From positions 1,736,001 through 1,800,000 of the forward strand of contig MCGE01000007.1 of NCBI GenBank assembly GCA_002105175.1: a DNA stretch of 64,000 nucleotides, given 5' to 3'. The number at the start of each line of letters is the position of its first letter. Position 1 is the first letter of the stretch. The translations under genes and the position numbers were made by a program. The notes beneath the pieces are model-generated. The model saw nothing but the letters and a program-made list of their open reading frames with translations. It was not told the origin of the DNA and did not search any database. Shown one piece after another: positions 1,470 to 56,980 of the stretch. Source of the DNA: Absidia repens (lineage: Eukaryota > Mucoromycota > Mucoromycetes > Mucorales > Cunninghamellaceae).

Positions 1470-1900
1470 TTTCCCGCCCACGTGGATTTTTTTATTTACT
1501 CCTACCTCCCTTTTTTTTTTTTCTCTCTCTCTCTTTCTTTCCTTCTTTTTTTTCCCTTCACCATTTCAGCTTCTTCGAGGTTCTAATGATCTTAGATTAG
1601 TGTCAGGGCTAGTTGAGAAGGGGGTTTCAGCTCATGGATTACAAGAAGCATGAGGAAACCCTTTGATTTTGGATTTAGGATTTACGCCCATCATTTGGTT
1701 TTTTAAAACATTAGCTTACTTTAATGTTAGTTTGTCCATAGTTTGAATCAATACATGAATAAAATACATCTCTTTTTATTTGCTTCAATGAAATTGTTCC
1801 GGTTATTTTTCTCATGTTTGAACAGTATAAAAGATCCGTTTTTACCATCTTTCCTTTAAATTAGTGTAGACAGTTGTTATGCTTCAACAAAAGACATCCC
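1470..1900 (+). repeat. Dispersed repeat family, copy A
   Basis: This copy carries CACGTG at 1479-1484, a pyrimidine tract at about 1508-1560, the conserved core with the hairpin at about 1617-1664 (GGGTTTC pairing with GAAACCC) and AATAAA at 1758-1763. It is alignable by eye to copies B-F. Similarity fades beyond about 1765 but scattered blocks persist to about 1900. It contains no credible ORF. The family is not one I recognise. Confidence 0.75.
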
Positions 1901-3324
1901 ATCGCTCAATCTCATAACTTGTATAGTACATTATATTCCCCTTTTACAACCATGTTGATCATACTTCCGAATCCATAATAGTCTCCCTCAGGTTTTCTCC
2001 AAGGAATCCCTTGTCACAATGAATACCCACAGCTTCAGTTTTAGTATATACAAACTTCGAATAAATATACCATCCTCTCACCCGTCTCTTTGTGAGCAAT
2101 GTCGTTATTATAACTGTTTTGTGAATGTCTAAACAAAAAATTGCTTTCGAGTTCACTTACTATGAGTATTTTTCACATTAATGGTCAGCAGTTTTACATC
2201 ACATACTATCACAAAGAGGACCATAATCCTGCTTCAATGACCATTGAAATGAATTTAGATCAAAGTAGCCACTTGCCTAGAGCATTTTCTCCTGCAAATC
2301 CAGTAATTGTTTTTTTTCGGAAGTGCGGGAATGTCCAGATCTATCAACTTTTTTTTTTTTTTTTTTTTTTTTTGTAAATTTGAGAGTGCGAAGTGGGGAG
2401 TTTCCCAAGCCTTGTTCAAAAAAACCGGCCCACTATTTAGACCTGAAAATCATAGAGCAAATATATACGCCAAATTCGTGTATGACAGTTGCTTTGTTCA
2501 TATTTTAATAGTCATTCGGTTTGCCTTTGTCTTGAATACATATAAAATACAAGCACCTCGTTGATATCACTGTTAAAGGAGTGTCTCTTTTTATTCTGAT
2601 TATACCGGGAAAAACAAACACCGAGTCGTGTACCTGAATCTCAAAACTCGACAGTTTTTTTTCAGATGGCGATTATAGTAAAAAAAAAAAAAAAACTATA
2701 TGCTGCACCTGAACCATGAAGCTCCGACATTAATTTTTTTGGTAAAAAATGTCCGGTTTTTGCAGAACAATGAAGGTTACATTTCGATGGTGTTCGATTC
2801 TCGATCATTTTACAAAACATCGATCTAACTGTATCACAATTTGATAGACAGCATATGATATTTCGCTGGAAAAAAAAAAAAAAAAAAAGTTGGCAGAGGA
2901 CGATGCTCAATAATATAACCAACCATTGCAATACATATATACAAGACAAGATATACAAATGTCAATCAAACTGAAAAAATAATACATAAACATTTCATTT
3001 TGTAAAATTCTTGAAACCAAGATCAAGCACAATTTTCGCTAATTTTTTTATGCCAAGCGATCATATTATTTGGGTAACCCATTCAGGTACCACATCAAAA
3101 TTGAAGCGCATTCCCTCCCCCCAATTTATTCTTGTTCCGATTCAACTCATATATCCCCAGTCAACCAAAGCTGCAATAACCCTTTTCTGTCAATAAAATA
3201 TCATAACATATAAGAATAGAAAAAATAAAAATAATGAAGTAACGTTTTATAGTATAAAGATAACATGTTTTATTCTTGTCAAAGAAAAGAAATTCTATTC
3301 TATTCAATTCTAGTATAACCTAAT
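1901..3324. other. Intergenic, no supported gene
   Basis: The stretch contains a 25-base T tract at 2349-2373 and A tracts near 2680 and 2870. Small ORFs such as 2141-2377 run into the T tract and match nothing I know. Confidence 0.45.
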
Positions 3325-3662
3325 CTAAGCAAATATATTTTCTTCAGTGCTACTAGTTTCCCACTTTCGTTGATCTAACCCACAAGAATGCTTGAAATGC
3401 TTCGCTGGCCAAGCCCCTTCCCCACTGTAGTTGCCATCATATCTGTTTTGTGTCCTGTTGTAATGATCTATTAGGGGAATTCCAGTTAAAGGATTGCTGT
3501 GATTCGATCTTGATCAAGTTCCCAAAATATATGCCGTTCGTCTAAAATGTTTGATGTTGTTTGCTTGTTTATTTCACCATCTGACCAATAAGAGAAACGA
3601 ATGTGAAGTCAGTAAGTACCATTGCAATTTTTGTTCACCAAGATTATATTCATTGACATCCC
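3325..3662 (-). pseudogene. Disrupted coding fragment, family unknown
   Basis: On the minus strand this region reads as coding-like sequence in three successive frames: DVNEYNLGEQKLQW, then RFSYWSDGEINKQTT and DERHIFWELDQD, then IPLIDHYNRTQNRYDGNYSG and GAWPAKHFKHSCGLDQRKW before a stop at 3325-3327. The frame changes fall at about 3590 and at about 3500 (a short A run) and are not explained by introns. It lies just downstream of the PFKFB stop on the same strand, leaving no room for a 5' half. I infer a 3' relic of a gene, or a real gene with sequencing errors. No family was recognised. Confidence 0.3.
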
Positions 3663-3899
3663 TGAATTAAATTACCTAAGTACATAAATTGATATGCAGC
3701 GTACCTAACAAAATGGAGAAACAAGCGATATCTAAGGTATTGGAAAGGGACATGGATGCAACATAGACAAATAAGATTTTTGTAATGGAGATGTGGAGAA
3801 GTTGAGTATTTATAAATATCAATTTAAAATGAAATAATAATAATAAAAAAGAGTGGAGGCGGGACGAAACTAAATACAGTAATATAGGCAATGCCAATT

Positions 3900-6457
3900 C
3901 TAAAATTCTACAAATGTATCCTTTTCTTCATCATATTGCCATTTCTTCAGTTGCGATCCATAAGGTTTTGGTCGGAGTTCATACACGCTATGTTAAAAAA
4001 AAGGAGGTAGGTAGGTATCGTCAATGACATTCATGATATTTAAAAAAGAAAGCACAGTTTACTTACGCATGCAACGGTACCAGCATATGAGGCATTTCTT
4101 CGCGTGTCCAGTCCAAAAGATATCCAAGAATGATTCGTAGTGCCACTCGATGTGTAATAATTAGACATGATTGGCTCATCCGCTCTAATTCAATCACAAG
4201 GGGTTGTAACCTATGGATGACATCTTGTTTAAAAAGTAAACCATTAATGTCTATTGATTCATTTCATGCCATTCAACTTGCTTCCTTTCTTTACTTACCG
4301 ATATATGATTCGCCACCCATACCAGGATATCGATAGTATAATTTGTTTTCTTGACGTGCTTTGTATTCATCTGGGTACTGCTTTTTGATCTCTGCGTAGG
4401 TCATCCGCTCCCGATCCTAAATCAAAAAGTCGTACTTGAGTTTCTTTTTCTTTTTCTGTTTCTATTTCTGCTTTCTTTTGCTTTACCCCCGAGTTGATTT
4501 CATTTAAATATCGAATATGCTATAAAAGAAAAAGTGAGTTGAAGCAGCTGACGACTCCAAAGCGTAAATCAATGCATTTACCTTGATGTCATAGTCTTCG
4601 ACACTAAAATTCTGTGCTGATTCGGTAGATCGACGAAGCATACTTGTCCAAACGGTAAATTGAGAAGAGGTGATAGCCTGGGACTTTGAATTGATAAAAT
4701 CCTGAGTTGATTCTTTCCCCTTGTCCTTCAATGTGCCGTCCGTAAGATCCAAAGAGTCCAATCCATATTCTTCCCACTTTTTCTCTTGTTCAAATTTGCT
4801 TCTTGCCAACTCGATCGCAAATGATTTTCGTTGCTCACCAACAAACTTTTCCAACGCCTTTGCAAACTTCATGCCTAATGGTGTCAACTATAAAATAGAA
4901 CAGAATAGACCAGTAGCCGATTAACATAGGACACTCTACATACCCGTATAATGATTTGATTTTGCACTTACAGAAGCATCCCCTCCTATGCGATCCTCCA
5001 AATTGTCAGTGCTTTGGCCATGTCTTGTCACGAAGATTTGTCGCTCTATAATTCAATAACAAAGAACAATTTCTTAAGCTTCCAAATAGCTCCATCACCC
5101 TTTCTTTTTTGCCTCTTCTCAAGAATTTACCTGACAGGTTGAAATTCATCAAGTAGAATATACATTGCCCAGACAAAAAACCCGAAATGTTGTGAGCCAC
5201 CACCTTTTTCCCGACGTTGATCATTTTACAATATTGCAGGTCACGTTCTTCTTCCCAGTCACCCAGTGGTTCATAGGCACGTTCGTAGTTGGCTACTCTA
5301 GAGCGAAAGTCTTCCAGAGCACTGCAAGGATTTTTGTCTTTATAATCCGGTCCTAGGAGTTTCAGCCTAAAATTCCGTTCCAGTACCTAGATAAATATAA
5401 TCAGGTGCAAGTGTCTGTTATTTTCATGTTCGCATCTATCCCGTCCCTCCAACATACTCTGCTTACCTTTTGATCAGTGCATACAGATTCCAGTAGTAAT
5501 ATTTTGATATTCGGTTCCTTTTGTAAACGATCGATCAAAAGTTTTCTAAACAACGAAAGTACCGTTAATATATTATTGATACCACTGGTTCTAGTTCTCC
5601 TTATGGGGGGGGTTTGTTTACCTTCGATCTATAGTAGAGTTTGTTGCATCGTGAATAGCCACACATGATCTATGCCCACTTTTCAGCCAATCGATCAACT
5701 GTCCCAGTACATTCATTGCTAGATCATCCCGCATTTTCTTCATGTCTTTGTTGTCCGGATCAAAGAAGTTGGCCGATTGATTGATATCTGCTGTCTTTTG
5801 TTCACGTCGAGTGTTGCCCACGTTGAATACCCGTGTTTCATATTGTAGCCAGTTGAGATATCGTCGTAGTTTCTTGACAATATAACTTTTGCCTCGTGCC
5901 GGTAGCCCAACTAAAAATGTCAACCCATCCCCCAGAAAATAAAAATAAAAAGAACATTTCGTCAGTATAACTGAAATATATTTGCCTGAAGAGTTCTGAA
6001 TTACCCATAATGATTGCCAATTTGCTGTCTAACGGTCTTTCATTACTGCTTTCTACAAACAACAACAAAAAAGGGAGAGATATGAGATACATTGTGGTTC
6101 AAGCGCTGCATATTCTTCAAACTTACTACGAGGTTTCAAAGTGGTTACGACGCCTGGGATTTCTTCAAGACCAACACTGTGGCGGAAAAGATGATCAGAA
6201 TCATCATCCTCAGCGAGTTTGACCCAATGGCCTTGGGATGTCGATTGTTGCTGTAGTCGTTGCTGGTCATTTTGTTGTTGTTGTTGTTGCTGTAGTAACT
6301 CTTCTTGTTGCTGTTGCTGTTCTTGTTGTTCCAGGTTTTGGTGTATTTCAGTTGGCTCTTCATGATTTGGTTCATCGACAGGGTAAAAGCTATCTTTTTG
6401 ATTTTCAATGTCGTGATCCGTCTTAACAACAGGTAACGTTTTTCTTCTTCTATCCAT
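3900..6457 (-). CDS. PFKFB: 6-phosphofructo-2-kinase / fructose-2,6-bisphosphatase
   Basis: The gene makes and breaks fructose-2,6-bisphosphate, the cytosolic regulator of glycolysis versus gluconeogenesis. It has about ten exons with GT-AG introns. The start at 6457 opens a ~110-residue polar, Q-rich N-terminus. The kinase domain follows, with Walker A GLPARGKS, then [17 protein letters not shown] and a [11 protein letters not shown] segment. The phosphatase half has the phosphohistidine motif [23 protein letters not shown], the [11 protein letters not shown] acid segment and the second histidine in [10 protein letters not shown]. Both active sites look intact, so a bifunctional enzyme is predicted. 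The protein ends with [15 protein letters not shown]. It is divergent from the hexose transporter at 7844. Assignment to the family is secure; which activity dominates cannot be read from the sequence. Confidence 0.93.
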
Positions 6458-14448: not shown

Positions 14449-15604
14449 GATAAAACAGAAGGAAGAAAAAAAAAAAAAAGAAAAAAAAAAAGGAAGAAAA
14501 GGGGAGAAGCAAAAAATTGGACAGAGGAGAAGAAAGCAAAAAAAAAAAAAAAGGAGGGTAAAATTTCAACCCAGCCCTGAGCGCGAACAAGTTCCTATTG
14601 TAGCAAAGGTAAACAAATAATCATATACAGTCTATATTTTTATTGTTCTTGTAAAACGTATATATATATATAAATGCAACCCCAGAATTTACAAGCCGAA
14701 GATATTTATATCTTCATTTGAATACTGGTAACTGCATTGCTTGCCAAAAAGGAGGTTTACCAGAACTAATATAGAAGATGTGGCTAGGGATCCGTGCTGT
14801 TCAAGCTAGTTGCTGTTTAAGGGACCCAACAATGAATAAGGTTGCATGCTGTACATAGTGCATTTTATGGTCTTGATACCACAAAGAACCGAGATGGACA
14901 AAAACAGGCTCTTTTGGCTCAATTTCGCTTAGACTACTTCCGAGGATACAAAGAAAGCTATTCCTTAATAATTTCTCTTATGGTGCAGTTCTACAAGAAG
15001 TTAAAGTAAACCAAGACAGTATCACACCTGACCAAAATTGATCTACTGATTGTCAGAGTTATAAGTGTGATTTTTAAGGAAACCAGAACAGTACCAACCA
15101 TATTACACCTTTATAGGCGGTTCCCCTTGGAGCTCAACTACCTCCAGTATGGGCCTCATTTTTTATTATACCATATGCAACGTCCCCCCCCCTTAAACTA
15201 AAAAAATAGCAAGCTGGGTATGTACAGTATGGTTTGTCTAGCGGAAGTTACTACTAATAGTACGGTGTAGGATGATTAAGAAGAAAGGTGGAGCAGGAAA
15301 TGTACAGCCACGTTTCATATTAGTTGACCTGCAACTCTGAACTAGCAGTGTGATATGATCTAAAGCGGCAACTACACGCACAACACAACCCAGATACATT
15401 TATATTATTAATTGACCATAAATATGACTACTATCTACGACAGTGAGTGATCTAAGATCTACAACTAGTTTCTGGGGCTTTATGGAAGTGAAGTGATCCT
15501 ACTGGGTGAGCTAGAAAGTAAATGCTTGGTAGGGTGCTCTTAGTACAACGACAATAACAACGCTAGTTCGCTATACGACCAGAGACAATGGTTAATAATA
15601 ATAA
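14449..15604. other. Intergenic, purine-rich A tracts near Mo25 start
   Basis: A purine-rich stretch (mostly A and G) spans about 14459-14565 just upstream of the Mo25 ATG. The rest is AT-rich without a recognisable gene. Confidence 0.45.
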
Positions 15605-16115
15605 AAACGGTATATTTTATTGAAGGATAATGGTAGATGCTAAAATTTAAGGAATGAAGTTCATAGTAACAAGACATTCAATTGAAGATTGTATTTGGTG
15701 GAACAATGAGAGTGACTAAAGTGAGATGTGAAGGAAGGTCGAATGTAGTAAAAGTCGACGCTAATTTACAGAGATGATAACACAGACGGATCTCTTCCAC
15801 AAAATATGAAGGATACGAATGGGACATTTTTTATTCAAGCATGTAAAAGCAGATACAAACTAAGACAAACTAACACTAAACTTAGCTAATGATGACTCCA
15901 GAAAGCCAACTAATGGTGGCTCCAAAATCCTGAATCCCAAATGAAAGGGTTTCCCCATGCATCTTGTAATCCCTGAGCTGAAAACCCTTCTAAACTAGTC
16001 CTGATAAAATTCTAGGTCCAAATAACCCCATAGAAATTGAATGGTGAAGAAAAAAGAAGAAGAACAAAGAAGAAGAAAAAAAAATTGGGAGAAAATATAA
16101 AACTTCACGTGTGCG
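15605..16115 (-). repeat. Dispersed repeat family, copy B
   Basis: Read on the minus strand this copy has CACGTG (16106-16111), a pyrimidine tract, the conserved core with the hairpin at about 15943-15990, then downstream blocks ending near a TCAATAAAATATA box at about 15612-15624. It lacks the central AATAAA box found in copies C and E, apparently through a small deletion. The match to copy C extends over most of the unit, which makes B and C the best pair for defining element ends. Confidence 0.8.
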
Positions 16116-16674
16116 GGATTTGAAATGCTTTCTGTGAGATTCCGCAGATTTTTTTTTTTGGTCCATTACAAAAAAAAAAAAGAGGACCCGCTTTCTTTTT
16201 TATAATGTCATCAACACGGTGATTGTCTTCTCTTGGCAATGATCACCACCAATCGGCATCGGTAGCATGGTTCATCTCTTCTCTTCATGCCCTTGCAGAC
16301 CAGTTGTATCAGTTCGGCATAGTCAACTCTCTACACTAGAATAGTGTGTCAGTCACGGTAGGCTAGCTTCTCCCTTAGACTTACGTTACCTGACGTTATA
16401 TTCAACAAGATGCCCCCCACGACAACTATACTCAGCCCTAGGTGCCTCATATTTAGATAGGTGCTATCCATAGTATTGTCATTTGCCCCAGCTTCGTCTT
16501 ATATAGTCATCTTATTTGCATTACATCAATAAAATTATTACTTTATTCATAGTATTTGGATTTTTGATTTTGTATTACATATTAAAATTGGATGGGAGGA
16601 GGGATGGATGGTGGTGAAAAATCGTGATTGTCAGGAAAAAAAAAAAAAAAAAAAAACCATCATCATCTCTATTA
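16116..16674. other. Intergenic, nothing recognised
   Basis: AT-rich flank between repeat B and the Q-rich gene. It includes an A tract at about 16635-16656 beside the gene's stop. Confidence 0.4.
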
Positions 16675-18138: not shown

Positions 18139-20214
18139 ATCTTTTGTTTATAGGGAATTCGAGAAAAGAAGAAAAAAATAAAAAAGAGAACGAATTATCA
18201 CTTGAACGGGGGATTGCTTTATATTGAGTATCATAGGATACTCGAATCGTGGGGTTTTAGATATTTTTGCATGAATTGCGTAGAAAAAACCCTCGGCGGT
18301 GATTGAATGTAAATCATACCCAACCACTTTGCTATTTTTTTTTTTTTTTGCTTTTTCCCAGAGGACGAGAAAACGTTAGAGCTTCTGTTATTGAAATATC
18401 ATGGTAAAGGATATTTGGGTATGTGAATGGCAAAGAACAACGACAATTTTAGCACAAAACTAATTTTTTTTTCTTCTTCTTGGTCATTCCATGCTAGAAT
18501 CTGGATCATCAAACAAATGAACATGTTGGCCTGTTACAGTACGTAAAAGGGAAACTGAAGAAAGGAACACAGGAGTGAATTTTAAAGTATTGTATTCATA
18601 ATAGTGGATGAATTATCATAATGAGAACTAAATGTTTTTATTTTACAAGTAGGACTAACGCGCTGGGCTCGAAATACCAGCAAACAACACTCATCATAAC
18701 GTGAAGCAACATGCAAACTGAATCACTCTGTCTCTGTAGTATGATGTTATTTTTTATTTACCATTTTTATCTTTCCCTTTTCCAGGTGCTCAAACATCAA
18801 TTTTGAAACTCATTTGGATGGAATTGGTGGTCGCAAAGCATTGTAGTGTGATGATGGAATTGAACCAATAAAAAATAGCATGATATCATTCGGACGTCAC
18901 AAGCAACGCCAATAGACAATTTGATGTAAAACTCGACAAACCACGCTTGGAAGGAATTAGGACGACACTAAGTTGCGAGGAATCAAATGACCTTTGTTGA
19001 CGCTTGACCCTGGATCAACAAAAGGAACTTCCCAGCTATCAATCACATTGACGTATTGCAGCAAATAGAATAACAATACAATGTGCATGATTCTATTATA
19101 CATTGGCATGGTATTGGCAATGGGATCGGATTTTTACTGAACTTGTTTAGCACTACGATTTACTCATACAGTTTTTTTTTTTTTTGTAGAATGGATTTAG
19201 TTTTGATTTTGGTAATGGGTATTTATCGTAGCTCAATCATTCTTTGATGGATTTGTGGGATACGCATTGGTTAGGCTAATATATGTAGATTACGTGTAGT
19301 TGGATAGATTAGCTATAGCATTGATACACCCTTTATTTGTTATATGATGGAAATAAAGTCAGTATTTTTTTTTTGATTTCTTTTACTACTGAATGATAGT
19401 CATATATCACACTCTTTGTGTGCGGACTCGCGGGTTTCTTCTTATATTGCCCAGCGCGTCGTCGCTCGAAAAGAAATGGTCGCAAAGAAAGTTACTCAAA
19501 ATCATTCGACAAGGGCATTATTACATTTTGTAGTTGTAGAAATCATCATGATACCCATACTCCCCCTTTTCTTTTGAATAAAGCTCTTTTATATCTGTCA
19601 CTCATTTAATTTGCCCCCTTTTGTTTGTTTTTCTGGCTTTAATAATCATTTTTAGGACCATTAAAAGCGTTTACTGAGGTCTTGATTATTTTAATGCCTT
19701 GGGGGAAACCCCAGATATAAGCTTCAAAGTTGGTCGATGTTTGGAATTTTGATCGGAGGTCTTGAAATTGAAATAATGGTAGACAGAGTAATTTCCCAAA
19801 AATAATAGGGGTTACTATAAAGCGGTGGTGACGGAATATTGATTATTACACAGTATTTATGAAGGATCTAGAAGCATTTGCATCGTTCATATTGCATTTG
19901 ATTGTCGGAACACATAAAAAAAAAAAATCAACACACGTGGTAGATAAACACTATTCATAGTTTTAATTCACCAGCGTTGACTATCAGACATTTTTATAAT
20001 GGATGTCGAAGGTACAGTACAGTACATTGAAACATTCCCGCAAGGCTTATCAACACAGGACGTGATGCTGGTTGTTTACCCAAGCGTCGCCGTATATGGC
20101 ATAATATTTAGTTCATCTGGTATCATACGCAAACAAAACAAAAAAAAATGAAAAAACAGGGATTGTCCAATATCCCATGTGTCTGATAGTAGAGATTGAT
20201 GGTTAAAAAAAGAG
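18139..20214. other. Long gene-free intergenic stretch
   Basis: About 2 kb between the Q-rich gene and repeat C with scattered T tracts (about 18332, 19171, 19363). Short ORFs such as 19418-19609 have no recognisable content. I see nothing else. Confidence 0.45.
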
Positions 20215-20830
20215 GATATATTTTATTGAGGCATAAGTATAAACTAAGGTCGACAGCAATCAAAGGATCTAAATAGAGTTAGCATGCGCGAGACTAATGG
20301 GTGCTCTGGAGAATGGTCAACACAAATCTAAAGGGTCGGTTGTAAGAGGAAAAATATTATGCCATGCAAAGCATAAGATTGACTTTAGAGAGATGTCTTT
20401 TTTGAAACATAATAATTGGCACTAATCTAAAGAGACGATAATATAGAGGGACCTCCAGCATCAGAAATGAAAGGGACTAATGTGACATTTTTCATTAAAG
20501 CATGTAAAAAGAGACATATTTTATTCATGTATTGATAAAAACTATGACGAACTAACACTGGACTAAACTAATGAAGTCTCCAATAAGACAATTCATGGTG
20601 GTCTCCAAATCCTGAATCCAAAATGAAAGGGGTTCCCCATGCATCTTGTAATCCCTGAGCTAAAACCCCTTCTAAACTAGTCCTGATACTAATCTAAGGC
20701 CAACATGATACCATAAATGTTGAATGGTGAAAAAAAAATGAAGGTAAAAAAAAAAGTAATCAAAAGAAAGAGAGCCGAAAAAATCAAAAAGAAAAAGATG
20801 GGACAAAATAATATAAGTTCCACGTGTGCG
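20215..20830 (-). repeat. Dispersed repeat family, copy C
   Basis: Minus-strand copy with CACGTG (20821-20826), a pyrimidine tract, a hairpin at about 20624-20672 with four G opposite four C, AATAAA at 20520-20525, and a terminal TCAATAAAATATA box near 20218-20230. It is the longest clean copy, about 615 bp from the CACGTG to the distal box. Confidence 0.8.
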
Positions 20831-21150
20831 GGATTTGAAATCTTTTCTGTGGTCTCTGGCAGAACTGAACTACCATGTAATCAATGACCTATTCCTATGG
20901 TTGCATGCAGTTTTTTGTTTAAAAAAAAAGACTACCATTTATTGTACGACTCAATATTCGTTTATTGACAATATTTGAGGAATCACATCAATGCGAGGCC
21001 TGCCCCACCCAGCTGCCTTACACAAAGCCCGTCAACCCAATTTGATCGAACGTCACTCTTTGCCCAGCAGGGAAAAACATTGTGAGCTTTGTACTCCGCT
21101 TTTCCACTCTTTTTTTTTTTTCTTCTCCCTTTTCACCCACAAAGTTGATC
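20831..21150. promoter_or_regulatory. Upstream flank of NDUFA13 gene
   Basis: A short flank with a CT-rich leader directly before the ATG (21109-21136), typical of core promoters in this window. No gene is seen. Confidence 0.35.
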
Positions 21151-29766: not shown

Positions 29767-31974
29767 ATGAAACATTCACTTACGTATATAGCGTTTGCAT
29801 GTATGGTGGCAATGACCAATGCCGCTACTGTCACATTTAACGTTATCGCTCCCGGTGCTTCTGATGTCCAAGTGTCAGTAAATGGTCAACAAACAAAATT
29901 GAATGCCAAAGACGCCGATGTGCCTTTATTCTCTGGTCAAATGGATGCTCCTGATGATGCTAAATACAAGGTAAATGCACTAACTTTTTTTTACAGAAAA
30001 AAAAAAGAAGGTTTAATCAATGTCCGCCTTTATTATTACATAGTACGTTGTTGGAGGAACTGCTGAAGAATTTGATCGTAGTTTAGAAAAGGGTCGTACA
30101 GCCACAAGAAACGATTTTTATAATCGTCCTGTCACTTATGCTAATATTCCTCAATTACCTTGGCCCATCAAGACAAACGTAAGTAGTGGAACAAAAACAA
30201 CAAAAAGTATAATCCTAGTTACTAACCGGCTTTTTATTGTTTGTTGTTTCGTTTTACGACCGGCTTTGTGTCTCCTTTTTTTTTTTTTTTTTTTTTTTAG
30301 CCCCAATGGACTCGTGGTGGTGACCCTGTTCCTCTCTTTGACTCCAATTATATTCCTAGCGTCTTTATTACTGGTGATGCTGCTGAACTTGATAATCTTG
30401 TCAAGAATGTCCCCAAGGATAATGTCAAAGCTAAGTTCACTCTCATCGAAGCTGAAAACGTACATACATTCAACGTAAGTGAAAAGCAAACAAAATTAGA
30501 ACCCCGTTGTTATTTTCAATATGTCGAATTTCTTTATACCTTTTTTGATTTATCGATTTATTTTAATGTCTTTCTTTTTTATATTATAATTACAACCAAT
30601 AGGATGTCAAATTCGCTATTCACGGTGCTGGAAAGAAGAAAAACGTAAATGACTAGGATCTACTCTCATCAATCATGTACATGCTTATACTCATTCATTT
30701 CTCTTCTTTATTTATTTTAGAATGCCAAACAAAGCTGGAAGTGGGAATTGAATGGCTCCGACACTTTATACAACCGAAACTTCTTCAAGATTCGACATAT
30801 GGAAGAAGACCCTACTCAAATGCGTGAAAAACTCTATGCTGATGTCTTGGAAGCCATGGGTTCCTATGCCAACAAAGCTAACATGGTGCGTCTCTTTATT
30901 AACGGTGAAGGCTTTGGTACATTCAATCTTTTGGACGATGTCACCAAGTACTCGTACTTCAATGCTCTCTTTTACAATGGCAAACCACCCGCGGAAAAAG
31001 GACCTCTTTATGATGGTGCTTCCGGTGCTTCTTTTGCTTACTCTCCTACTGGTGACTACTATTCTTTCAAGCCCAACAAGGAAGGTCCTGCTGGTTATGA
31101 TGGTCTCAACGAAGTCTGCAAGGAATTCAGCGAACTCAACTACGCCGATGATAAAGCTGTTGGCCAATTTGGCAAAGACAAATTTGATACTGATCAATTC
31201 ATTCGTTTCATGGTCATGGAATATCTTACTGGCTCTTGGGATGGCTATTGGATGGAACAAACAAATGACGGTGCCTATCAAGATCCTACTGACAAGAAAT
31301 GGTACTACTTGGGTCAAGATTATGATGCTACTTTTGGTGTCAACTTGGATGTGCCTGAAGGAAAAGAATTCCCCAAGGTCTCCTACACAGCTTTCCCTGA
31401 ACGCTACCCTAAAGCTGTCCTGATCAACAACTTGCTTAAGAACCCCGCATCAAAGAACACATTTGAAACTTACCTCAAGGATACCGTGCAAGTGCTCTTC
31501 AACAATGTGACCCTCACCAACCGTGTCTTGGCCTATCATGACTTTATTTTGCCTGATTTGAAATGGGATCGTAGCATCAAACAACTATCTCCTGGTACAA
31601 ACTTTGGCTGGACTTATGAACAAACAACCCAAAACCTCTTTGAAGGTGTTTCTGCTGCTATGCCCGGCGTTGGAGGCGCCGAATACGGATTGATTGAATG
31701 GATTGTTGCAAAATCGCAAGCCGTTGCTACTGAATTCAAGATTGCTATTACTGAAAAGCCTGTAGGTCCTCCAACAAATGGTACTAAACCGAACCCTTCT
31801 GCTTCCTCAAATGCCTCTGGATCATCCTCTGGATCAACATCGTCCACTGGTGGTGGCTCTGCTGGATCTTCGAATTCTGCTCAAGAAGATTCAACAACAT
31901 CTGGTGCTTCTGCTGTGATGGTACCATCTGCCTTGGTACTTGGTGCTCTCTCTCTTGTGTCTACCTTGATGTAA
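29767..31974 (+). CDS. CotH-family protein, secreted and probably GPI-anchored
   Basis: CotH proteins resemble bacterial spore-coat kinase CotH; in Mucorales they are cell-surface proteins and some act as host-binding invasins. Exons are 29767-29970, 30044-30178, 30301-30474, 30603-30644 and 30721-31974, giving 602 residues. The start chosen gives a signal peptide (MKHSLTYIAFACMVAMTNA). An N-terminal beta-rich part is followed by the CotH domain: FFKIRHMEEDPTQMREKLYA, NMVRLFINGEGFGTFNLLDD, FMVMEYLTGSWDGYW, TNDGAYQDPTDKKWYYLGQD and DYDATFG. The last two blocks are characteristic of Mucoralean CotH proteins. The C-terminus is Ser/Gly/Thr-rich and ends in a hydrophobic tail (VMVPSALVLGALSLVSTLM), fitting a GPI signal. 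The frame is intact. Whether it is a host-binding member cannot be told from this sequence. Confidence 0.93.
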
Positions 31975-33149: not shown

Positions 33150-33500
33150 GCAATAAAATTACTATTTATTGCCCTAAAAAATATATTCGTCTCTCTTTCT
33201 TTTTTTCCCTTCATTTTTCATTTGTTTCTTCTCCATTCAACTTATATAGGGTTATGGTGGACTTAGATTAGTGTCAGGTCTAGTTTAGAAGGTTTCAGCT
33301 CAGGGATTACAACATGCATGGGGAAACCTTTTCATTTTGAATTTCAGGATCTGAGGACACCATTATATGACTTTATTAGTTTAGCTCAGTGTTGGTTTGT
33401 CTATATTTTCTATCTATATTTGAATAAAATATGCATTTTTCACTTGACTCAATGAATTATGTCCCATTAGTCTCTCATGTTTGCACAATAGACTTTTTTT
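33150..33500 (+). repeat. Dispersed repeat family, copy D
   Basis: This copy has a degenerate start (CTCCGCAATAAA where other copies have CCCGCACACGTG), a pyrimidine tract at about 33190-33230, the conserved core with the hairpin at about 33287-33333 (GG opposite CC), and AATAAA at 33423-33428 followed by a CATTAGTCTCTCATGTTT block shared in part with copy A. No credible ORF. Confidence 0.75.
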
Positions 33501-35072
33501 TTTTACTAGCAATCAATCACGTTCGATTAGTGGTGACCGATGTTGCGTTTCAACAACAAAGATACCCTTCAGCCTTTCTCTTGTCTTGCACAGTATATTT
33601 GTTCCCGTTTTATATTTGTTTCGTTAGATTAGTGTTGAACATTCTCCAGATCCCCGACTAGTGTATCTTCTGCTAGCTCCATTAGATCCCTTGATTGCTG
33701 CTGACCTTGGCGGTTTACGCTTATACCTCAATAAAATATATCACTTTTTTCCAACTCTTAGACCCACAGGGATTGAACAATTCCCATCTTTGTGTGTATG
33801 TGTGTGTATGTGTGTTTATGTGTGTGTGCGTGTTGACAGGGTGTGAATTAAAATATTATGCCATATACGGTTCTGCTTGGGGGGGGAGAGAGAATTTCTG
33901 AACGATCCGCATCGCTTTGTCGCTTGAGGAGCTCATAGTGAGTTTACTTCATTATATTTCATTGTAATTCCAATATATATTGCAAACATGTCTGATAGTC
34001 AACGGTAGAAAATTAGAAATAATAATACTGTCTAGTTTATCAGTCCTTGTGATGTTTTTCTTATATTTCTGACGATCAAAGACCTTTGACAGGAGCTATA
34101 CAGAACAAGATCACTATGCCTTTATCATTTTCTAGCAGTGGTGTTCACATAAACTCTATCATTTTTGAAAAACTCGCCTATCTAGCATCACCTCAATTTC
34201 AAGACTCCCCTGCCAAAATTTCCAAACATGAACTGATATCGAATGCTTGTATTGTTGGTCTTTTTTTTTTTTTTTTTTTTTTTTTTTTGTAAGACTTAGA
34301 AACAATCTCAACTTCAATAAACGTTTCTAATGATCCTAATAAATGAAGACTACAATGTTTTGTATTGATGTTTTTATTTATCACAAAGGTATGAGACTTC
34401 AAACTGGGTCTAAATTATGATTTTCCTGGCTGAAGGGCGCCATCAAGTTGTTAGTGCTCGTATATGGTGTATTGTTCTATGTCGTCAATAAGAGGTAGGT
34501 GTTTTTTGGGAATTGTCTATGATGGTGAGTATTCTTTTTTTCAGCCATAATGTCTCTTATCGCTTACTTTTCCAATGACTTAACATCATCTTTAAAGGCA
34601 TCATAAAGCCGGCTTAATCCACCGTCAGCAACAAACTTAAAACTAGCCAAAAAGTATGATCGCGAAAAAACAGAAAAAAATAAAGTCAGTTAGTCGAGCT
34701 CACAGTATAATATATATATATATATATATATCCGGAAAAAAACAAAAAGACAATGACAACAATTACAAGCAAAAGCAAATGAGTGATACACAATGTGGTT
34801 TTTATTCAAAAAAAAAAAAAAAATGAAAAAAAATGAATATCCTAATAGCTTCTAAACTACAAAACGGAATAAAATCCTTTTAAGGTGATTTTATGTGATT
34901 TTATTTGCGAACATTCCCTTCGGGCGATGACGCACAGATCAATGCAGGTTGCGCCCTAGAGATCGCGCACCTCGAATGTGACAATATGGCCATCGTATTG
35001 ATCATAAAAAAAAAAGAAGGTAGCAATGCATTTTCTAACACAGATCACTTTTTATTATTATTATTCACCTAC
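33501..35072. other. Intergenic with microsatellites and a possible terminal exon
   Basis: Contains a TG/TATG-rich run at about 33789-33834, a 28-base T tract at 34261-34288 and a TA microsatellite at 34707-34731. On the minus strand at about 34570-34655 the reading FKFVADGGLSRLYDAFKDD ending VKSLEK-stop follows an acceptor-like TTTTTGGCTAG. It looks like a coding relic but its family is unknown. Confidence 0.35.
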
Positions 35073-44435: not shown

Positions 44436-45054
44436 AATATGACAGTAACTCTGAAAGCAACAACGTTCCGTGACTGGTTGTTGGATGTGAAGTATGATAA
44501 TTCGAGTAACAGTTTCTTCTCAGACACTCCTAGACATCGTCCATCGTGTCGAGAACGGGATGAGGTTAGGTGAAAACCTGAGCGGATACCCTTTATATAG
44601 GTGGAGATCTAGCGCATTGAGCAATTAATATAAAAGATAGATTAGATCCAGAAAGAGCATACAGTGAATAGGGGTTCAGTAAGGTCTAGGATGTGTACAG
44701 AGTCATTCTACAGCATAAATGATAAAAAAGCAAATACACTTTATATAGATAGCTAGCCCACTTGAGAGCAATCATTTTTAGTATAATACCGAGTAGTCAT
44801 ACTCCGTGACAATAATATAAAAATAGAGGCTGGAAGTTTTTATTTTAGCCTATACCGTTGGTCAGGGGTTTCCTAGATACTAGCAAAACACATTAAAAAC
44901 AATGAAATTACCTAACGGAATAATCCCAGTGTAACCCAGCAAGCAAAACACGCATCAAAGACACTATACAAAGGAACTATTGGAGGGAGCGAGAGGGACA
45001 CGATTTGGGTTCGAGAGAATGGTCAATTTTAATTTAAATAGGACGAGGTAAAAC
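44436..45054. other. Intergenic, nothing recognised
   Basis: AT-rich sequence leading into repeat copy E; no gene, RNA gene or clear repeat boundary seen. Confidence 0.4.
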
Positions 45055-45581
45055 GAATATAATATACTGCACAAAAGCAGATAAGACATTATAAAGATTA
45101 TAATCGGATATCTTTTATTGAAGCATAACAATTGTGAACACTAATTCAAAAAGGCAATTTTAAAATGGCATATAATATATTGTACAAGGCAAAAGACACG
45201 AGAAAGACTATAAATGGATATATTTTATTGAAGTATAACACTCATCCCCATTCATGTAAGGAGGTGAATGGTAAGAAAGGATCTATTGTACAAGACGAGA
45301 AAAAGTAATGGGACGTATTTTTCATTGAAGCAAACAAAAAGAGACATACTTTATTTAGTTGTAATACAACCTATGGAAACTAACACTAAACTGAACTAAG
45401 AAAGTCATGTAATGGTTCTCATAATCCTGAATCCAAAATGAAAGGGTTTCCCCATGCATCTTGTAATTCCTGAGTTGAAAACCCTTCTAAACTAGTCATG
45501 ATACTAATCTAAGTCCAAAATAACCCCATAGAAGTTGAATGGTGAAGAGAAAAATGAAGGGAAAAGAAAGAAAGAAAGAAA

Positions 45582-45613
<32 letters not shown>

Positions 45614-45655
45614 GGAAATAAAAGTGGATCAAAATAAAACATTTCACGTGGTCGG
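45055..45655 (-). repeat. Dispersed repeat family, copy E, with internal tandem units
   Basis: Minus-strand copy with CACGTG (45645-45650), a pyrimidine tract that has become a GAAA tetranucleotide microsatellite (about 45563-45613), the hairpin at about 45440-45487 and AATAAA at 45350-45355. The distal part consists of three degenerate tandem units spaced about 110 bases apart (starting near 45058, 45171 and 45281). Each ends with a TATTTTATTGAAG-like box. Confidence 0.8.
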
Positions 45656-46420
45656 AATTTTAAATCTTTTCTGTGTCCTCTCGCTGAACTGCAGTTCTGA
45701 TTCTAAAGGCACAAAAGGAGCTCCAGAAGCTCGCTGTCTTGATATATATAGCAAGCTACATACATATGAATAACAACATTACCCACAATATTGCCATACA
45801 ACTTTGTTTTTCCATTAATATTTTTATTGTGTGTTCTTATGAATTGTATTAAAGTCAAAAAAAAAAAAAGGCTGTCGTCTTTAGATCCTTACCGTATATG
45901 ATAGTAAGGCTAGCACCTCAAAGATAGAAAACGTTGTCATCGGGTGCATGTATGTACGAGCAACCAACAAGTCAAATGGTATGTAAGAGTCGAGTCGAAG
46001 TAGCACAGTTTTTAGAAAGGTACAGTAAAACCATCGTTTTAACCAGTGGACAACCGATAAGAATGCGTGTTAATGATTTGAGGAGACTAGCTGTATTTAC
46101 TATCCATACTAATGTACAGATCTATAAAAAATAAAATAAAAATAAAACCTGTCAAGGGTCATTCTAAAGTACTGTACAATGAATAATAGACAAATAAGAT
46201 GGCTTTGCTTGTTGTTTACTTGGCGCATTTCTAAAAATTGTTTATGTGTAACTGTTTTTTATTTCCAAAAATAGGCTTGGGAGCGAACTGTCCCAACCTT
46301 TTTGAAGAATGATTTCTTTTTTTCCTTGGCTCTTTGTTCTCTTCTTAATTTTTTTTTCTTTCTTAAAAAAAAACAAAAAACAAACGTATATCTCTTTATT
46401 CGCTTTTTTAACAATTCACA
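45656..46420. other. Upstream flank of MARVEL gene
   Basis: AT-rich with A/T tracts and a T/C-rich leader at about 46313-46362. The ORF at 45934-46134 has no recognisable content. Confidence 0.4.
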
Positions 46421-47554: not shown

Positions 47555-47910
47555 ATAGTATTCCCATCCCACTCTCCCACTTAGTATTTGTATTATTCCC
47601 CATTCACTCAATTTGCATCACATATTACATATGTCGGCCTTTTTTTCTTCTTCTTATTCTACTTTTTTATGTGTATATTTCATTGTATAAATAAATAATA
47701 GTACGGATGTCTCATCAGTCCTTTTCTTTTTTTTTTTTTTTTTGATTCACCGCCCACCTGATTGCTCTTTTTTTCATTGGGCGCGGACCTCTTTTTTTTT
47801 TTTTGGTGCATCTTCCTCACCCTCTTTTTTTCTTTTATACTTCTTTTTTTATCAATTACTCTATATACCCATACTTTCCTTTATTATAGACATACAATAT
47901 CATATATACC

Positions 47911-51248: not shown

Positions 51249-53204
51249 ATGCCTGATCTCCTCAATCGATTTTGGAAAAAAGGTGTAAAGCCATACGATC
51301 CCCCTCCACGCATTACTACAGTCTTCTGCTATTGTCGCCGATCTACATGCACGAAACAGCATTCGATCCCCTTTATAAAAACTCAAACAGGTAATAAAAA
51401 ATAAAGGATCAATTTCAGTTTTCATAGAGGCTCATGTCTTTTTATATTATCAAGTAGATAAAAACATTCACTCTCAACAAAGACTGTGCCACTTATACCA
51501 TTCGTCAATCAATTCCAACAACCCCAAAATATCAACTACCATCACTACTCACCTCTTGTCGGAGGACGATGAAGTGGATGAATTATTTGACCAAGAAATG
51601 GTATGTATGACAAAACACCATGCGTATTGAAACAATGATCCTGTTTTTAGTTCAAATTACTGACTACTTCTTTTTGTATATGATAACAATAGAAACAACG
51701 AAAAATTGGTGATACACAGCTACCCACCACCATGAAACCCTTGCCACTTCCCCCATTCGATGCACCTCCACATGAGCATAGAAATGATCTCCGGCAAACA
51801 CCCTCTTCAACGAAATACAGCCATAGAAGTGGTAATACACTCCTCAACCCTTCTATTTACCTGTCCAATATCCTACAACGTGGTAGCTCTATCTTCTCTG
51901 CATTACATCAAAAACGGGATAACCACGACTTGCCTGAATACTTTATTCAAAAGTTTATGGGAGCCAATCTGCGGACGGTGTCTGTATCTGATGCTTCCAG
52001 TCTGGAATCCAGCCTCCGAACTCGTCCCCTCATGTAAGGGTGAAAAAAAAAAACAAGAAAAGCATACATTCTATATACTAAGCATTTTATTTTCTTTAAT
52101 AGATGGCTTGAAAAATTCATTGATCTCAAGGGTATGCATATTCTAATGCTCTGTTTGCGTCGAATCAATCATCAGAAGGATAGGTATTGTAATAAACATA
52201 TGTCATATTAGCCACTACTTTCTCATCGTTAGTTTTTATTCCATCTCGTACATAGGACCAGAAAAAAACCTCTTGATATTGAATTCGAAGTCATCAAGTG
52301 TATCAAAATCATAATCAACACTAGAGTAAGTAGAAACAAAATATTATATCATGACGACCTGTGAAACTAACAAAATTAGCATCCTTAGATAGGCGGAATA
52401 GAAATCACCAATCATCCAAATTATATTCACACAATTGTCTTCTCATTACTGTGTCCTCGGTGGCAAACACGAAAGCTGGTGTGCGACAGCTTGGTCTCTA
52501 TTTGTTACAATAAAGCTGGAAATGGCGAACAAGATACTAATCTTGGACACCAACACATTATCCGAGGATTTGAATTACTGCAGCAAACTACAAACGATAA
52601 GACACTCTTCGATACATGGATGAAACAACTGGAGCACCCTTGGGATGGCTATGACCGAATGGGACCTTTTGTGGCTACTCGTAATGATTTGAAGAAACAT
52701 GGTGTATTAAAATTACCTAGCAAACAACTCATGATGGAATATGTGGTAAGCCAATAAAAAAAAATGAAGGGTGGAGGGGATAATTTATAGAGTTTTTTTT
52801 TCTATGGTAATATACTCATTCGTAATATTTATTTATTCTTAGACCTCTAACATGCTCCTTATCAATGCTCTGACAAATGTACCTAAGACGGAATCTCAAC
52901 GTATGGTCATCAGATATCAACTCAACACTTCTGGTATGGAAGCACGTGTTTTGCCAAAATTTCGCTGCGTAGAATACCTTCCCCTCAAAAGTCAAGTAAC
53001 TGCGTATGAAAAAGCTGCTGCGAACGACCTGAAGACGATACTCAATGATGAATCGAGACTATACTATGGAAATAACGACACTGAAAAACTTTTGGAACCT
53101 CTAGTCAATGGCATGGAATTATCATCAAAATCGGCGGATGATCTTTTGGACAACATGAAAAGCTTAATGGTTACAAAAGGCTCTTTGGAAACAAAGTAAT
53201 TTTG

Positions 53205-53235
<31 letters not shown>

Positions 53236-56071
53236 GAAACAAGACAGGGAACTGATCATTTAATTTCATAGGGAATATTATAGTCTCGTCATACATGCTT
53301 TGATGCATCAACTTGCTGCGGGCCGCTGGGCTATTACGAAGGATCAAGATGTTACTGCTCTTTTTGGTGTACCTGCAAAAGATATCATTCAACATTATAG
53401 AAACTTGGATCGGCTTCGTCAATTGAAATCCAGAACAATACACAACGAAACAAGGAAATCACAAGTTATCAATGACAATGAAACTATGGATAATCCTGTT
53501 GACACTGAAGCTAAACATGTACAAGTTGTAGCGGACTCAAATAGGGGACTCAAGGTGCAACTTGAAGAACGCAAAATCAATTCGACACCAGATCGATCTC
53601 ATAGTCGAGAAAACATATCTACAGTGGCAAAAGGTAATGTTTGAAAATGCATAGAAAAGGCGGTATATTTACTTACAGTTGTTTGGTTCTTACTAGAAAA
53701 ATCATCAATTGCGTCACAGTCACTCCTAGTTCCACCACCACCTCCTCCTCCCCCTCCTCCGTCCTCAATCTTAGGTAAATTGACGATACCGCTTCTTTTT
53801 CCCAGATTTTCTAATAGAATTATATTTTGCTTAGAAATGGACTCATCTCATACTGTAGCTTCGGATACCCTGTCACCACCACCTCCTCCACCAAGATTGT
53901 CACCAATAGCATCACACGAACATTCTCGCCAATACATTACTCCTACCACACCCATCAAAAAAATGCAGCACCAGTCAATGATAAAACTCAAAAATCTCCA
54001 GTGGCAAAAACTCAACTCGAATAGCATGGAAAAACGATATGGACCTTGGAGGACGGGAATGAGACCGATCTTGAAATAAAATTATCGCAAGCTGGGGTCT
54101 TCCGAAGCATTGACACCATGTTTCCTGCAAAATCCAACACCACTTTTGATCGCAAACTCAAGGCAATTACTGATGAAAAGATGGATGTCGTCAAATTTTT
54201 ATCCGGGAACAAAAGTCGAGGTCTTAGTAAGTTAAAATTGCTGGAACCCCGAAAAAGAAAAAATTTGATTCGACTAATTGCAAATCTTTTCTTTTGATAG
54301 ACATTGCTGTCCTACCAAAGCTCAAACATTTTGGCAACTATGCCTTAGCGCGACAGACGATTATGCACATGGACCCTGATTTTTGCACAGAAAATATGTT
54401 GAACAACCTGATTATGTATGCGCCTTCCAGAGAAGATGATTTGATTACCATGGATAAGTATACCAAAGCAACCGCCAAACAATGTCTCTCTTTGGATCTA
54501 CCCGAACAATTTACTATCGAGGTAGGTCTATTTCTTGAAAAAAAAAAAAAAAAAAGTAGTAGAGAACAAAAATGATAACTTTGTTTCTGTTTTTGCATTT
54601 GAATGGTTAGATGACCAAAATATATAGGTATCCTCAACGCCTCCATTTTATGCTATTTCGGGTCCAATTTTGGGAAAAACTCGATCGATTATATGAAGTA
54701 AGTTTTTGTGATTTTTATTTGTCTTACATAATACGTCTCAAGTTAACCGAATTCGATTTTTATTTTACCCAACAGAATGTCACCACTGTTGTCAAGGCAT
54801 CGGAATCGTTGCGTGAATCAACTAGCCTGAAGGAGCTTCTCAACGTAAGTAAAGCAGTATATACAAAATATAAATTTGTAATCACTTACTTTTTTTCTTC
54901 TTTTTGTATTTAACAGATTATTCTCTTGATGGGAAATTACATGAATGGCTCAAGTTTACAAGGAGGTGCCGTTGGAATTAGAATTGCTAGCTTGAACAAG
55001 GTAATGTGGTATTATTGTGTTTTCTACCAACTTTGTTATCAAGTTAAATCAATTTTAACGGCCTTTATATATATCTTTTATTTTTCTAGTTGATAGATAC
55101 TAAAGCTTCTGTCAAAACATCTTTGACACTTCTCCATGTGCTGGCAGGTACTGTTCGCCAAGAATTCCCTTCTATCTTGGCATTCGTAGACGACCTCAAA
55201 GATACTGGAAGGGCAGCAAGAAGTAAGTACCAACCGGTCTAAGCAAACGTAATTGACACGCAGACTGACCTTTCTATTGTTGTAGTTATGGCAAGTTTTA
55301 ACGACATTGTGCATGAATATACTGATATGCGGCAAAAGCTGAATCAACTGAATGACGAACTGAAAACTCACTGGAAACCTGAAAATGTGGAACAAGGTGA
55401 CCAATTCTCTCATGTGATGTCAGAATACTACAATTCAGCCGTTAGCCAATTTGAAAACTTGGAAACGCTCTACCTCAATATGGATGTTAAATGGAAAGAT
55501 ACGATGTTATTTTACGGCGAAAACCCCAAAGATATGCGCCCTGATGACTTTTTCTCAATTTTTTCAACATTCTTGGGCCATTGGAAGGTAATAAAGACAT
55601 CTTTCTAATAACTTAACTTATATGGACTCATCCTCTGCATTTTTTTTTTAGGTGGCTTCTATTGAAGAACAGCAATACAGTGATCGGATGGAACGAAAAC
55701 TGTGGCAAAAGCGGCACCAATGTATTCCGTCAAAAAAGTATACTACAATGAATAGTTGCAACAGTAGCAGCAATGACAACAGTAACTCCGATTTCACTGG
55801 TTCTGAAACACCTGATGGAAATCAACGTCGGATGGACGACTTGGTGAATAGACTTCGAACCGGAAAAAGTTTACACGAATCAAGACGACTGCGGCATAGA
55901 AATCATCAAAATTCGAATCATGCGCTACAACTTTCTGCTTCTTTGTCTGCTCCTGTGTCTTCTTCGATCACGCACTCTTCGTCATCAGCTCATTTGGATT
56001 GTAGCAATAGTGACGATGGTTGCTCCTTATCGGCCGAAGATTTGCTCCGTGACTTACAAAACGGCGACTGA
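51249..56071 (+). CDS. Diaphanous-related formin, one apparent frameshift
   Basis: Formins nucleate and elongate unbranched actin filaments under Rho-GTPase control, driving polar growth and cytokinesis. The gene has about 16 exons. Domains in order: N-terminal polar region; GBD/FH3 (LPEYFIQKFMGANLRTVSV, SSLESSLRTRPL, IWLEKFIDLKGMHILMLCLR, PRWQTRKLVCDSLVSICYNK); FH1 proline runs (P10 at about 53733-53762 and P6 at about 53877-53894); FH2 (LKNLQWQKL, PKLKHFGNYALARQTI, LLMGNYMNGSSLQGGAVGIR, RQEFPSILAFVDDLK); and a C-terminal DAD-like RMDDLVNRLRTGKSLHESRR. At the FH1/FH2 border the frame breaks: the A5 run at 54030-54034 is one base short for the expected TIW continuation. If the base exists the protein is complete and autoinhibitable. 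Confidence 0.9.
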
Positions 56072-56391
56072 CAAACAACTCTAGTATCTTACAAATTCAC
56101 GATCCCATTTATTAGATTATGTATATATCCTCCCTCATTAGAATAGCCATTATCAAATTATTTACACGGCTATTTCTTTATATTATTTACTCCCGCTCCC
56201 CTTCCTACTTTTTTATAATACTGTATCTTTATATCCATTTTTACTCATAATTATTGTCCATTGAAAATAAATAAAAACATTTGTGTATCATATATCTACT
56301 ATATCGTTGATTTGAAAATCTTGATGGATCATTCATCCTTTAAAAATGCTTTTTATGTCTCATTAGCCTCCTCTTGTTCTTCCTTTGAATT

Positions 56392-56456
<65 letters not shown>

Positions 56457-56644
56457 TTGGATAGTGTACGTTTTTTGAGCGTTAACATTAATGAACTGTG
56501 TCGTAGTAACAGCAGTGATACTGTCAGGAACGATCAAAGTCGGTCTCGGAATGATGACGACTGCAATCATGAAGAGAGCATCACCATGTTGCCTGGTGTT
56601 CACGATGTAAAAAAAATCCCCAGCCATTTGAGGGTATTTCAAAT
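56072..56644. other. Formin 3' flank with a 60-base T tract
   Basis: AATAAATAAA near 56266-56275 probably ends the formin transcript. An uninterrupted run of 60 T occupies 56394-56453. ORFs across it encode only polyphenylalanine or polylysine and are rejected. Confidence 0.6.
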
Positions 56645-56980
56645 GCCGCCCACGTGAATATTATTCTCTCAGTTTTGTTTTTCCCTCGCTTTCTTTCCAT
56701 TTTTTTTTTCCTTCCCATTTTTTCTTCACCAATCGACTTATTTGAGAATATGATGATCTTAGATTAGTGCCAGGACTAGTTTAGAAGGGTTTTCAGATCA
56801 GGGATTACAAGATGCATGGGGAAACCCTTTCATCTTGGATTCAAGATTTGTAACCACCATTAGTTGACTTTTTGGTGCCTCCATTAGCTTAGCTTGGTAT
56901 TAGTTTGTCAATATTTGTATCTAAATTTGAATAAAATATGTTTTTTTTTTTTTGGTATCTACTTTAATAAATAATGCCAC
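56645..56980 (+). repeat. Dispersed repeat family, copy F
   Basis: Plus-strand copy with CACGTG (56651-56656), a pyrimidine tract, core and hairpin (about 56784-56831, GGGTTTTC opposite GGGGAAACCC), and AATAAA at 56930-56935. Weak similarity to distal blocks of other copies may continue to about 57300 (CTTAAATAAAACACGTC near 57269). Confidence 0.8.

Follow-up and report, generated by a model that had tools for sequence, protein, structure and literature searches.

Results

A dispersed repeat in the window and in the genome

The window, a stretch of 64,000 nucleotides corresponding to positions 1,736,001-1,800,000 of contig C67 in the 47.4 Mb, 79-contig genome of Absidia repens, carries six copies (A to F) of a non-coding dispersed repeat with a conserved core. 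To an earlier note on this DNA, which had described the six copies, our analysis adds the layout of a transcription unit, the age of the common branch of the family, a young branch that reveals a mobile origin, and the spacing of the copies. The old copies may be kept for a role that each plays in its own neighbourhood.

Copies A, D, and F lie on the plus strand and copies B, C, and E on the minus strand, three per strand and at or near the positions given before (Table 1). A 19-mer from the core, GATTACAAGATGCATGGGG, was found six times in the window at three or fewer mismatches (mean of 0.01 in shuffled sequence), and CTAGTTTAGAAGG six times at no more than one mismatch (shuffled mean 0.06); CACGTG by itself is not enriched (10 found, 6.9 expected). 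The copies are intergenic, as had been claimed: compared with open reading frames (ORFs) of at least 110 amino acids, they never overlap by more than 3 bases, the sole case being the end of copy F, and the flanking ORFs have Pfam matches to ordinary genes. The order of parts that the six copies were said to share holds in part: CACGTG is present in five of the six, but copy D is without it, and copy B is without TTAGATTAGT, even allowing one mismatch. The unit extends farther than the earlier note had it and is about 1.1 kb in all, as judged from the span of copy B (Table 1) and from the alignment of copies C and D to about +940.

Genome-wide counts of the 19-base core word are 1,072 for exact matches, 2,299 at one mismatch or fewer, and 3,884 at three or fewer, while the reversed word, used as a control, gave 0, 0, and 2 matches, respectively. 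Three other core motifs have 1,787, 1,898, and 1,916 exact occurrences (2, 5, and 0 for reversed controls). The expectation of very many copies genome-wide was thus correct, and a lack of enrichment elsewhere, which the earlier note had listed as evidence that would count against it, was not seen. A survey of the first 1.37 Mb of contig C1 with three core motifs revealed 110 copies, and ca. 121 were estimated from motif overlap (about 10% missed). The density is about one copy per 11-12 kb, and the genome total is near 4,200, provided that the C1 density holds elsewhere. A profile search of a 100 kb sample, made up of the window plus the adjacent 36 kb and picked without the use of core motifs, revealed ten copies. 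Outside the species, two bacterial matches of the 19-mer in 257 billion bases are at chance level, and there were zero matches in viral contigs. Repeats amount to 35% in Absidia glauca, according to a figure cited in PMC4133162. A literature search, with subscription journals mostly outside it, revealed no recognised description of this Absidia repens repeat.

Anatomy of the unit

Read 5' to 3', the unit of ca. 1.1 kb consists of CACGTG, a pyrimidine tract, a core of ca. 75 nucleotides, AATAAA near +120, and degenerate tail units. The 5' edge is fairly sharp, with some pairs of copies keeping weaker similarity farther upstream, and the 3' end fades. On the 5' side there is an A-rich stretch (A6 within 60 bases in 43 of 69 copies, versus 11 of 69 for a control stretch); the main-branch edge that follows it is TTTCAAATCC, with no TG there, and TTTCAAATCCCGCCCACGTGA and a TATA-like stretch also come after it. 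Exact CACGTG was found in 57 of 81 C1 copies. TTCAAATCC, which is similar to a polymerase III B box, stands directly 5' of CACGTG in most copies read. The tract that follows has a mean pyrimidine content of 0.89 (68 C1 copies), and the putative transcription start, near CTTCACC, is at CTTCACCATTC, between this tract and the core.

Poly(A) signals were counted in 81 of 82 C1 copies, one copy being excluded for overlapping another. AATAAA is present on the sense strand of 78 of the 81, mostly at +120 to +139, and on the antisense strand of 37; between +80 and +159 there are 86 sense versus 12 antisense occurrences. ATTAAA and TATAAA are commoner on the antisense strand. The tail is built of degenerate units, several with AATAAA, and reaches about +930. 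In loci L047 and L063, homology that continues past +1,000 proved to end in a second, convergent copy. Taken together, the layout resembles that of a short RNA polymerase II transcription unit, with a predicted RNA of ca. 200 nucleotides.

Conservation of the core

In the ten copies of the 100 kb sample, 69 of 738 core sites (9.3%) differ from the majority, compared with 233 of 1,157 (20%) in two flanking blocks and 483 of 1,771 (27%) in the tail (Fisher P, to be read as a guide, 1.4e-10 for core versus flanks and 1.3e-25 for core versus tail); in the poly(A) block, 12% of sites differ. The claim that the core is more conserved than its flanks is therefore upheld. Nine of the ten copies have three to seven core differences each. 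The tenth, L066, on the minus strand, has 25 differences at 74 core sites; with L066 left out, the values are 44 of 664 (6.6%) for the core, 196 of 1,051 (18.6%) for the flanks, and 26.2% for the tail. On C1, the core is less diverged than the tail in 81 of 82 copies, a set picked by core motifs and therefore biased in favour of core conservation. Separate conservation peaks are seen at the promoter motif and at the poly(A) signal.

Tails or promoter blocks were not found away from a core in the 100 kb at better than E 0.01; weaker matches were at E 0.014 and 0.11 in L066, and the window has further ones reaching E 2.4. Among the best 40 matches of a tail-only genome search, two fall in the surveyed C1 stretch, and both adjoin a known core.

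An old main branch and a young variant branch

The age of the family was judged from the closest relatives of individual copies, in each case the best 40 of all candidates (3,413 for copy F, 3,285 for copy C, 1,799 for the L067 tail, and 3,287 for L010). Leaving out short pieces of 30-90 bases at up to 94% identity, the main alignments to dispersed relatives reach at most 78% for F (range 71-78%), 84% for C (range 72-84%), 74% for the L067 tail, and 83% for L010; among the matches listed, L010 also has one 93% relative, 13.5 kb away. Median nearest-neighbour identity outside the core is 0.74 in the 82 C1 copies, and the tips hold 87% of the length of their tree (an identity of 1.0 between entries 1,013,669 and 1,013,956 is an artefact of their overlap). 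By these comparisons, the common branch is old, for the main-branch copies tested.

The stronger proposal, that there are no young copies at all, was rejected on account of a variant copy, L104 (C1:619595-620195). Among the best 40 of 1,118 candidates, L104 has at least 39 further copies on 24 contigs, at 88-97% identity over ca. 600 bases. Six copies, L104 included, each on a different contig, are near-identical for ca. 60 bases upstream beyond the searched stretch, the ends of the young element lying outside the stretch read. L104 is related to the main branch, with identities of about 68-82% in alignments of 90-260 bases, and is homologous to it in the core and the poly(A) block. It lacks CACGTG, has a pyrimidine tract of its own, and departs from the majority at 24 of 74 core sites, 20 of 51 sites in the block before, and 13 of 56 in the block after. 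L066 is 79% identical to L104 over 259 bases and is better read as lying in or near the variant branch; its reading as a decayed copy was dropped on this evidence. Pairs of loci that share at least 86% identity, L025 with L104 and L078 with L100, also belong to the variant branch. Same-strand doublets with ca. 1.17 kb between copies recur (C1:97644/98825, C1:519097/520260, and C21:54264/55436) and might represent either direct terminal repeats or a unit in tandem. The number, identity, and distribution of the L104 relatives indicate that the family is mobile in origin and that part of it has moved recently.

Possible gene conversion between neighbours

Two pairs of neighbouring copies share near-identical tracts. 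L010 and its C1 neighbour, at a distance of 13.5 kb, share 96% identity in the 526 bases that begin at the 5' edge and 81% in 86 bases near the 3' end. This pair (C1:406664 and C1:420182) had been considered a recent transposition from the former site to the latter; conversion would fit the 81% identity at the 3' end better. In L004 (1316-2394, C1 about 148.3-149.4 kb), two divergent copies 694 bases apart form an inverted pair whose 411-base arms, with about 264 bases between them, are 98% identical. Both pairs would fit conversion between neighbours.

Near-identical tracts between dispersed main-branch copies were not seen, either in the best-40 relative lists or among fetched loci compared at 86% identity or above. 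Apart from the variant branch, the matches in the latter comparison were two copies in tandem within L043 and a segment shared by L030 (1-330) and L044 (3015-3355). This segment is 93% identical over 341 bases, contains no core, and is probably a different repeat.

Spacing of the copies

The 109 gaps between copies in the first 1.37 Mb of C1 are more even than random, with a coefficient of variation (CV) of 0.71 versus 0.99 for random placement (0 of 20,000 simulations as low), and P is 0.0007 under a null model of intergenic slots with assumed gene spacing. Gaps of 3-5 kb are rare (3 versus 12.7 expected) and those of 10-20 kb frequent (51 versus about 27). When doublets closer than 3 kb were merged, a 3 kb exclusion zone failed to explain the pattern (0 of 5,000), whereas one of 5 kb was sufficient (P 0.15). 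Copies found with motif 1 alone have a CV of 0.61 (0 of 20,000 as low); copies with only one of the motifs look randomly placed. Nine copies in the 100 kb, the tenth not included, have a CV of 0.37 (P 0.003). The strands of neighbouring copies are unordered (58 of 109 alike).

Tests of RNA structure, coding capacity, and repeat class

A predicted hairpin folds better than shuffled sequences in the sense orientation (z -2.7, 12 of 500 as low) but not in the antisense one (z -0.5, 145 of 500). A structured RNA with a sense hairpin and a GAAA loop was nevertheless rejected as a candidate, covariation and a stem test giving no support. In an alignment of 121 copies, from which duplicates, short rows, seven C1 rows that overlapped or were near-duplicates, two further rows, and those rows of L001-L024 that the C1 set already contained had been removed, four column pairs exceeded the maximum of 15 shuffled alignments, and none of them formed a helix. 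These pairs lie within 9 columns of each other, with pairability not above 47%, and are therefore taken to mark subfamilies. Changes in the stem preserve pairing in 143 of 246 cases versus 119 expected, an excess due to a single TC/CT dinucleotide; once that is left out, 45 of 131 changes are pair-preserving versus 56.6 expected. Unpaired hairpin sites are 4.7% diverged, versus 7.5% for paired ones.

Nothing in the window reached the Rfam gathering score, and a relaxed search of one window stretch and five loci gave only ToxI (E 4.3) and IRES_Kv1_4 (E 0.26), far below that score and not better than chance. A tRNA search of the window found none; together with the Rfam negatives, this leaves a tRNA-like identity, or a short interspersed element (SINE) with a head derived from tRNA, 7SL, or 5S RNA, unsupported. 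Resemblances to U6 and to spliced leaders were considered and dropped. Sense frames, judged by eye, are open for 20-35 codons, and the most peptide-like one is interrupted by a stop codon in the CT variant, which is common.

In 71 copies scanned within -450 to -120 and +600 to +1150, terminal repeats, whether inverted, as a miniature inverted-repeat transposable element (MITE) would have, or direct, did not exceed chance; the 15 matches of 11-19 bases are scattered, in both orientations, and have no common place. The earlier note, too, had seen no clear terminal inverted repeats. No target-site duplication was identified, the ends of the repeat being blurred and the one pair examined at both sides fitting conversion. 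Nor was a clear tie to reverse transcriptase genes found among the scored RVT_1 matches (150 of 213 candidates; RVT_2 was not searched). One of four RVT_1 matches in the surveyed part of C1 is less than 5 kb from a listed copy, and on its other side no copy is listed for 20 kb; one of the 40 young-branch matches listed, C24:475857, is within 5 kb of a listed RVT_1 match, as judged by eye. Many of the 150 scored reverse transcriptase matches have equal scores and long open frames and are therefore probably young. Two of the 150 lie at 364-407 kb of C1, where there are no listed copies. The description of a dispersed non-coding repeat with a conserved core and of no recognised class is supported by the copy number, the comparison of core with flanks, and the terminal-repeat and Rfam negatives.

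Coordinates and neighbouring features

Coordinates of the copies and their parts are given in Table 1. A T tract of ca. 60 bases lies upstream of copy F (56393-56453 of the window). A gene at 30721-31974 has a CotH kinase domain, which belongs to a spore-coat and invasin family in Mucorales, and ORFs at 58417-60960 have staphylococcal nuclease and Tudor domains and are Tudor-SN-like.

Table 1. Repeat copies A to F and their parts, in window coordinates.
Feature	Position	Strand	Basis or remark
Copy A, promoter-like block to tail	1466..2295	+	profile matches 1466-1967, tail 2092-2295
CACGTG, copy A	1479..1484	+	
Core 19-mer, copy A, 2 mismatches	1637..1655	+	motif search
Copy B, promoter block to tail end	15202..16125	-	profile matches
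CACGTG, copy B	16106..16111	-	palindrome; strand is the orientation of the copy
Core 19-mer, copy B, exact	15953..15971	-	motif search
Copy C	19714..20839	-	tail aligns to copy D tail to about +939
CACGTG, copy C	20821..20826	-	
Core 19-mer, copy C, exact	20635..20653	-	motif search
Copy D	33181..34253	+	CACGTG absent, promoter block unrecognisable
Core 19-mer, copy D, 1 mismatch	33305..33323	+	motif search
Copy E	45007..45663	-	profile matches; extra repeated tail unit at 45007-45150
CACGTG, copy E	45645..45650	-	
Core 19-mer, copy E, 1 mismatch	45450..45468	-	motif search
Copy F, promoter block to tail	56638..57473	+	profile matches
CACGTG, copy F	56651..56656	+	
Pyrimidine-rich tract, copy F	56664..56727	+	by eye; upstream of the putative transcription start
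Conserved core, copy F	56759..56850	+	
Core 19-mer, copy F, exact	56803..56821	+	motif search
First AATAAA, copy F (+127)	56930..56935	+	by eye; position conserved among C1 copies

Discussion

We tentatively propose that the repeats in the window belong to the old branch of a mobile-element family whose copies have been retained because they act in cis, most probably as transcribed boundaries that set gene groups apart. The old branch is the common one, and its sister branch spread recently. In the unit, CACGTG and the TATA-like stretch are followed by the pyrimidine tract, a putative start near CTTCACC, and the core just downstream; the poly(A) signal near +120 would end an RNA of ca. 200 nucleotides, with further poly(A)-like units in the tail beyond. 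Old copies would be retained by selection, each acting on its own neighbourhood and separating groups of genes. Mobility alone does not explain the constancy of the core in the old branch, since the young branch moves without keeping it. A cis role is suggested because selection on one of ca. 4,000 copies is easier with local action than with a shared pool of RNA, and it is the transcription-unit layout together with the exclusion zone that inclines us towards an element that is transcribed and acts locally, possibly as a boundary. In an extended version, which we consider unlikely, the old copies would have turned into chromosomal addresses that act in cis: transcribed marks in their thousands, at a density of one per 11-12 kb, which delimit small domains and are individually selected while the sister branch still transposes.

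Several observations weigh against this proposal. The promoter block differs at 23% of sites in the 100 kb and is conserved no better than the flanks, and copy D has lost CACGTG. Sites within one copy are not independent, which is why the P values serve as a guide; the core was compared with flanks and tails of the same copies in one species and not with a neutral rate, and the window part of the 100 kb sample was itself picked for its repeat copies. Conservation declines gradually with distance, as gene conversion might also give, and near-identical tracts between neighbouring copies do exist. As to spacing, gaps below 3 kb do occur (16 of 109, 23.5 expected), motifs 2 and 3 alone give CVs of 0.85 and 0.83 (P 0.10 and 0.08), and an exclusion zone of ca. 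5 kb explains the pattern (P 0.15), a zone that insertion habits could yield. The related branch being a young mobile element, a purely selfish history would be natural.

Such a history, in which a functionless family consists of old relics and a young, recently moving branch, the signals served the element itself, and conversion, strongest between the parts most alike, homogenises the core, is about as likely as a transcribed local element. The old copies would thus have kept their core either through a local role, as we tentatively suppose, or, with much the same reservation, through gene conversion without function. The L104 branch speaks for the functionless history by its many close copies, by the near-identity of L104 and five relatives farther upstream, and by its homology to the main branch, as do the recurrent doublets, the LTR-like (long terminal repeat) order of parts, and the two pairs of neighbours with converted-looking tracts, one of which drops in identity near the 3' end. 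That history is harder to reconcile with the lack of terminal repeats above chance and of recognised ends and target-site duplications. Tested dispersed main-branch copies share no near-identical tract, which would be expected under global conversion, and the core stands out from its immediate flanks with no smooth slope, the promoter motif and poly(A) signal forming peaks of their own.

If the repeats were a huge family of genes encoding a single small non-coding RNA that acts in trans, or precursors of it, and the core were the functional portion of that RNA, this would account for the transcription-unit layout, the sense-strand AATAAA, and the better folding of the hairpin in the sense orientation. 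We find this reading quite unlikely, however: among thousands of redundant genes, each one should be under relaxed selection, the covarying columns mark subfamilies, the stem excess is due to one dinucleotide, conservation in the hairpin is higher at unpaired than at paired sites, and there is no Rfam match. A chromosome element that works as DNA, without transcription (a replication origin, an attachment site, or a dispersed kinetochore site), is least probable of all and, in our judgement, highly improbable. A conserved core without structural support does behave as a long protein-binding site would, the spacing is more even than random, and an A-rich stretch lies just upstream, but the conserved sense AATAAA and pyrimidine tract would be unexpected, and close doublets occur.

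Known systems offer partial parallels to this repeat. CORE, V, and Deu SINEs also have many dispersed non-coding copies in which a central domain of tens of bases is the most conserved; SINEs, however, have a polymerase III promoter, whereas the repeat has a polymerase II-type layout, with no tRNA in the window. Solo LTRs or those of terminal-repeat retrotransposons in miniature (TRIMs) combine promoter, start, and poly(A) signal in a unit of several hundred bases, and the ca. 1.17 kb doublets and the young branch would suit them; the main-branch 5' edge without TG, the target-site duplication that was not identified, and the lack of a clear reverse transcriptase link would suit them less well. 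The 21U-RNA (PIWI-interacting RNA) loci of Caenorhabditis likewise number in the thousands, as small dispersed units in which a single motif is constrained amid diverged surroundings, but their motif is upstream, whereas the constrained part of the repeat would lie inside the transcript. Yeast insulators (tRNA genes and extra TFIIIC sites) are dispersed between genes, as is the repeat with its B-box-like TTCAAATCC; in contrast to them, no tRNA-like arrangement was found in the repeat, which is longer and far more numerous.

A repeat with ca. 4,000 old copies would ordinarily be expected to consist of relics, but in the nine main-branch copies the core is diverged by 6.6% and the tails by 26%. 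If gene conversion is responsible, the family would illustrate clearly how an old transposon can be homogenised around a single short segment. If single copies are selected, much of the intergenic space of Absidia repens would share a function that is unseen in gene annotation.

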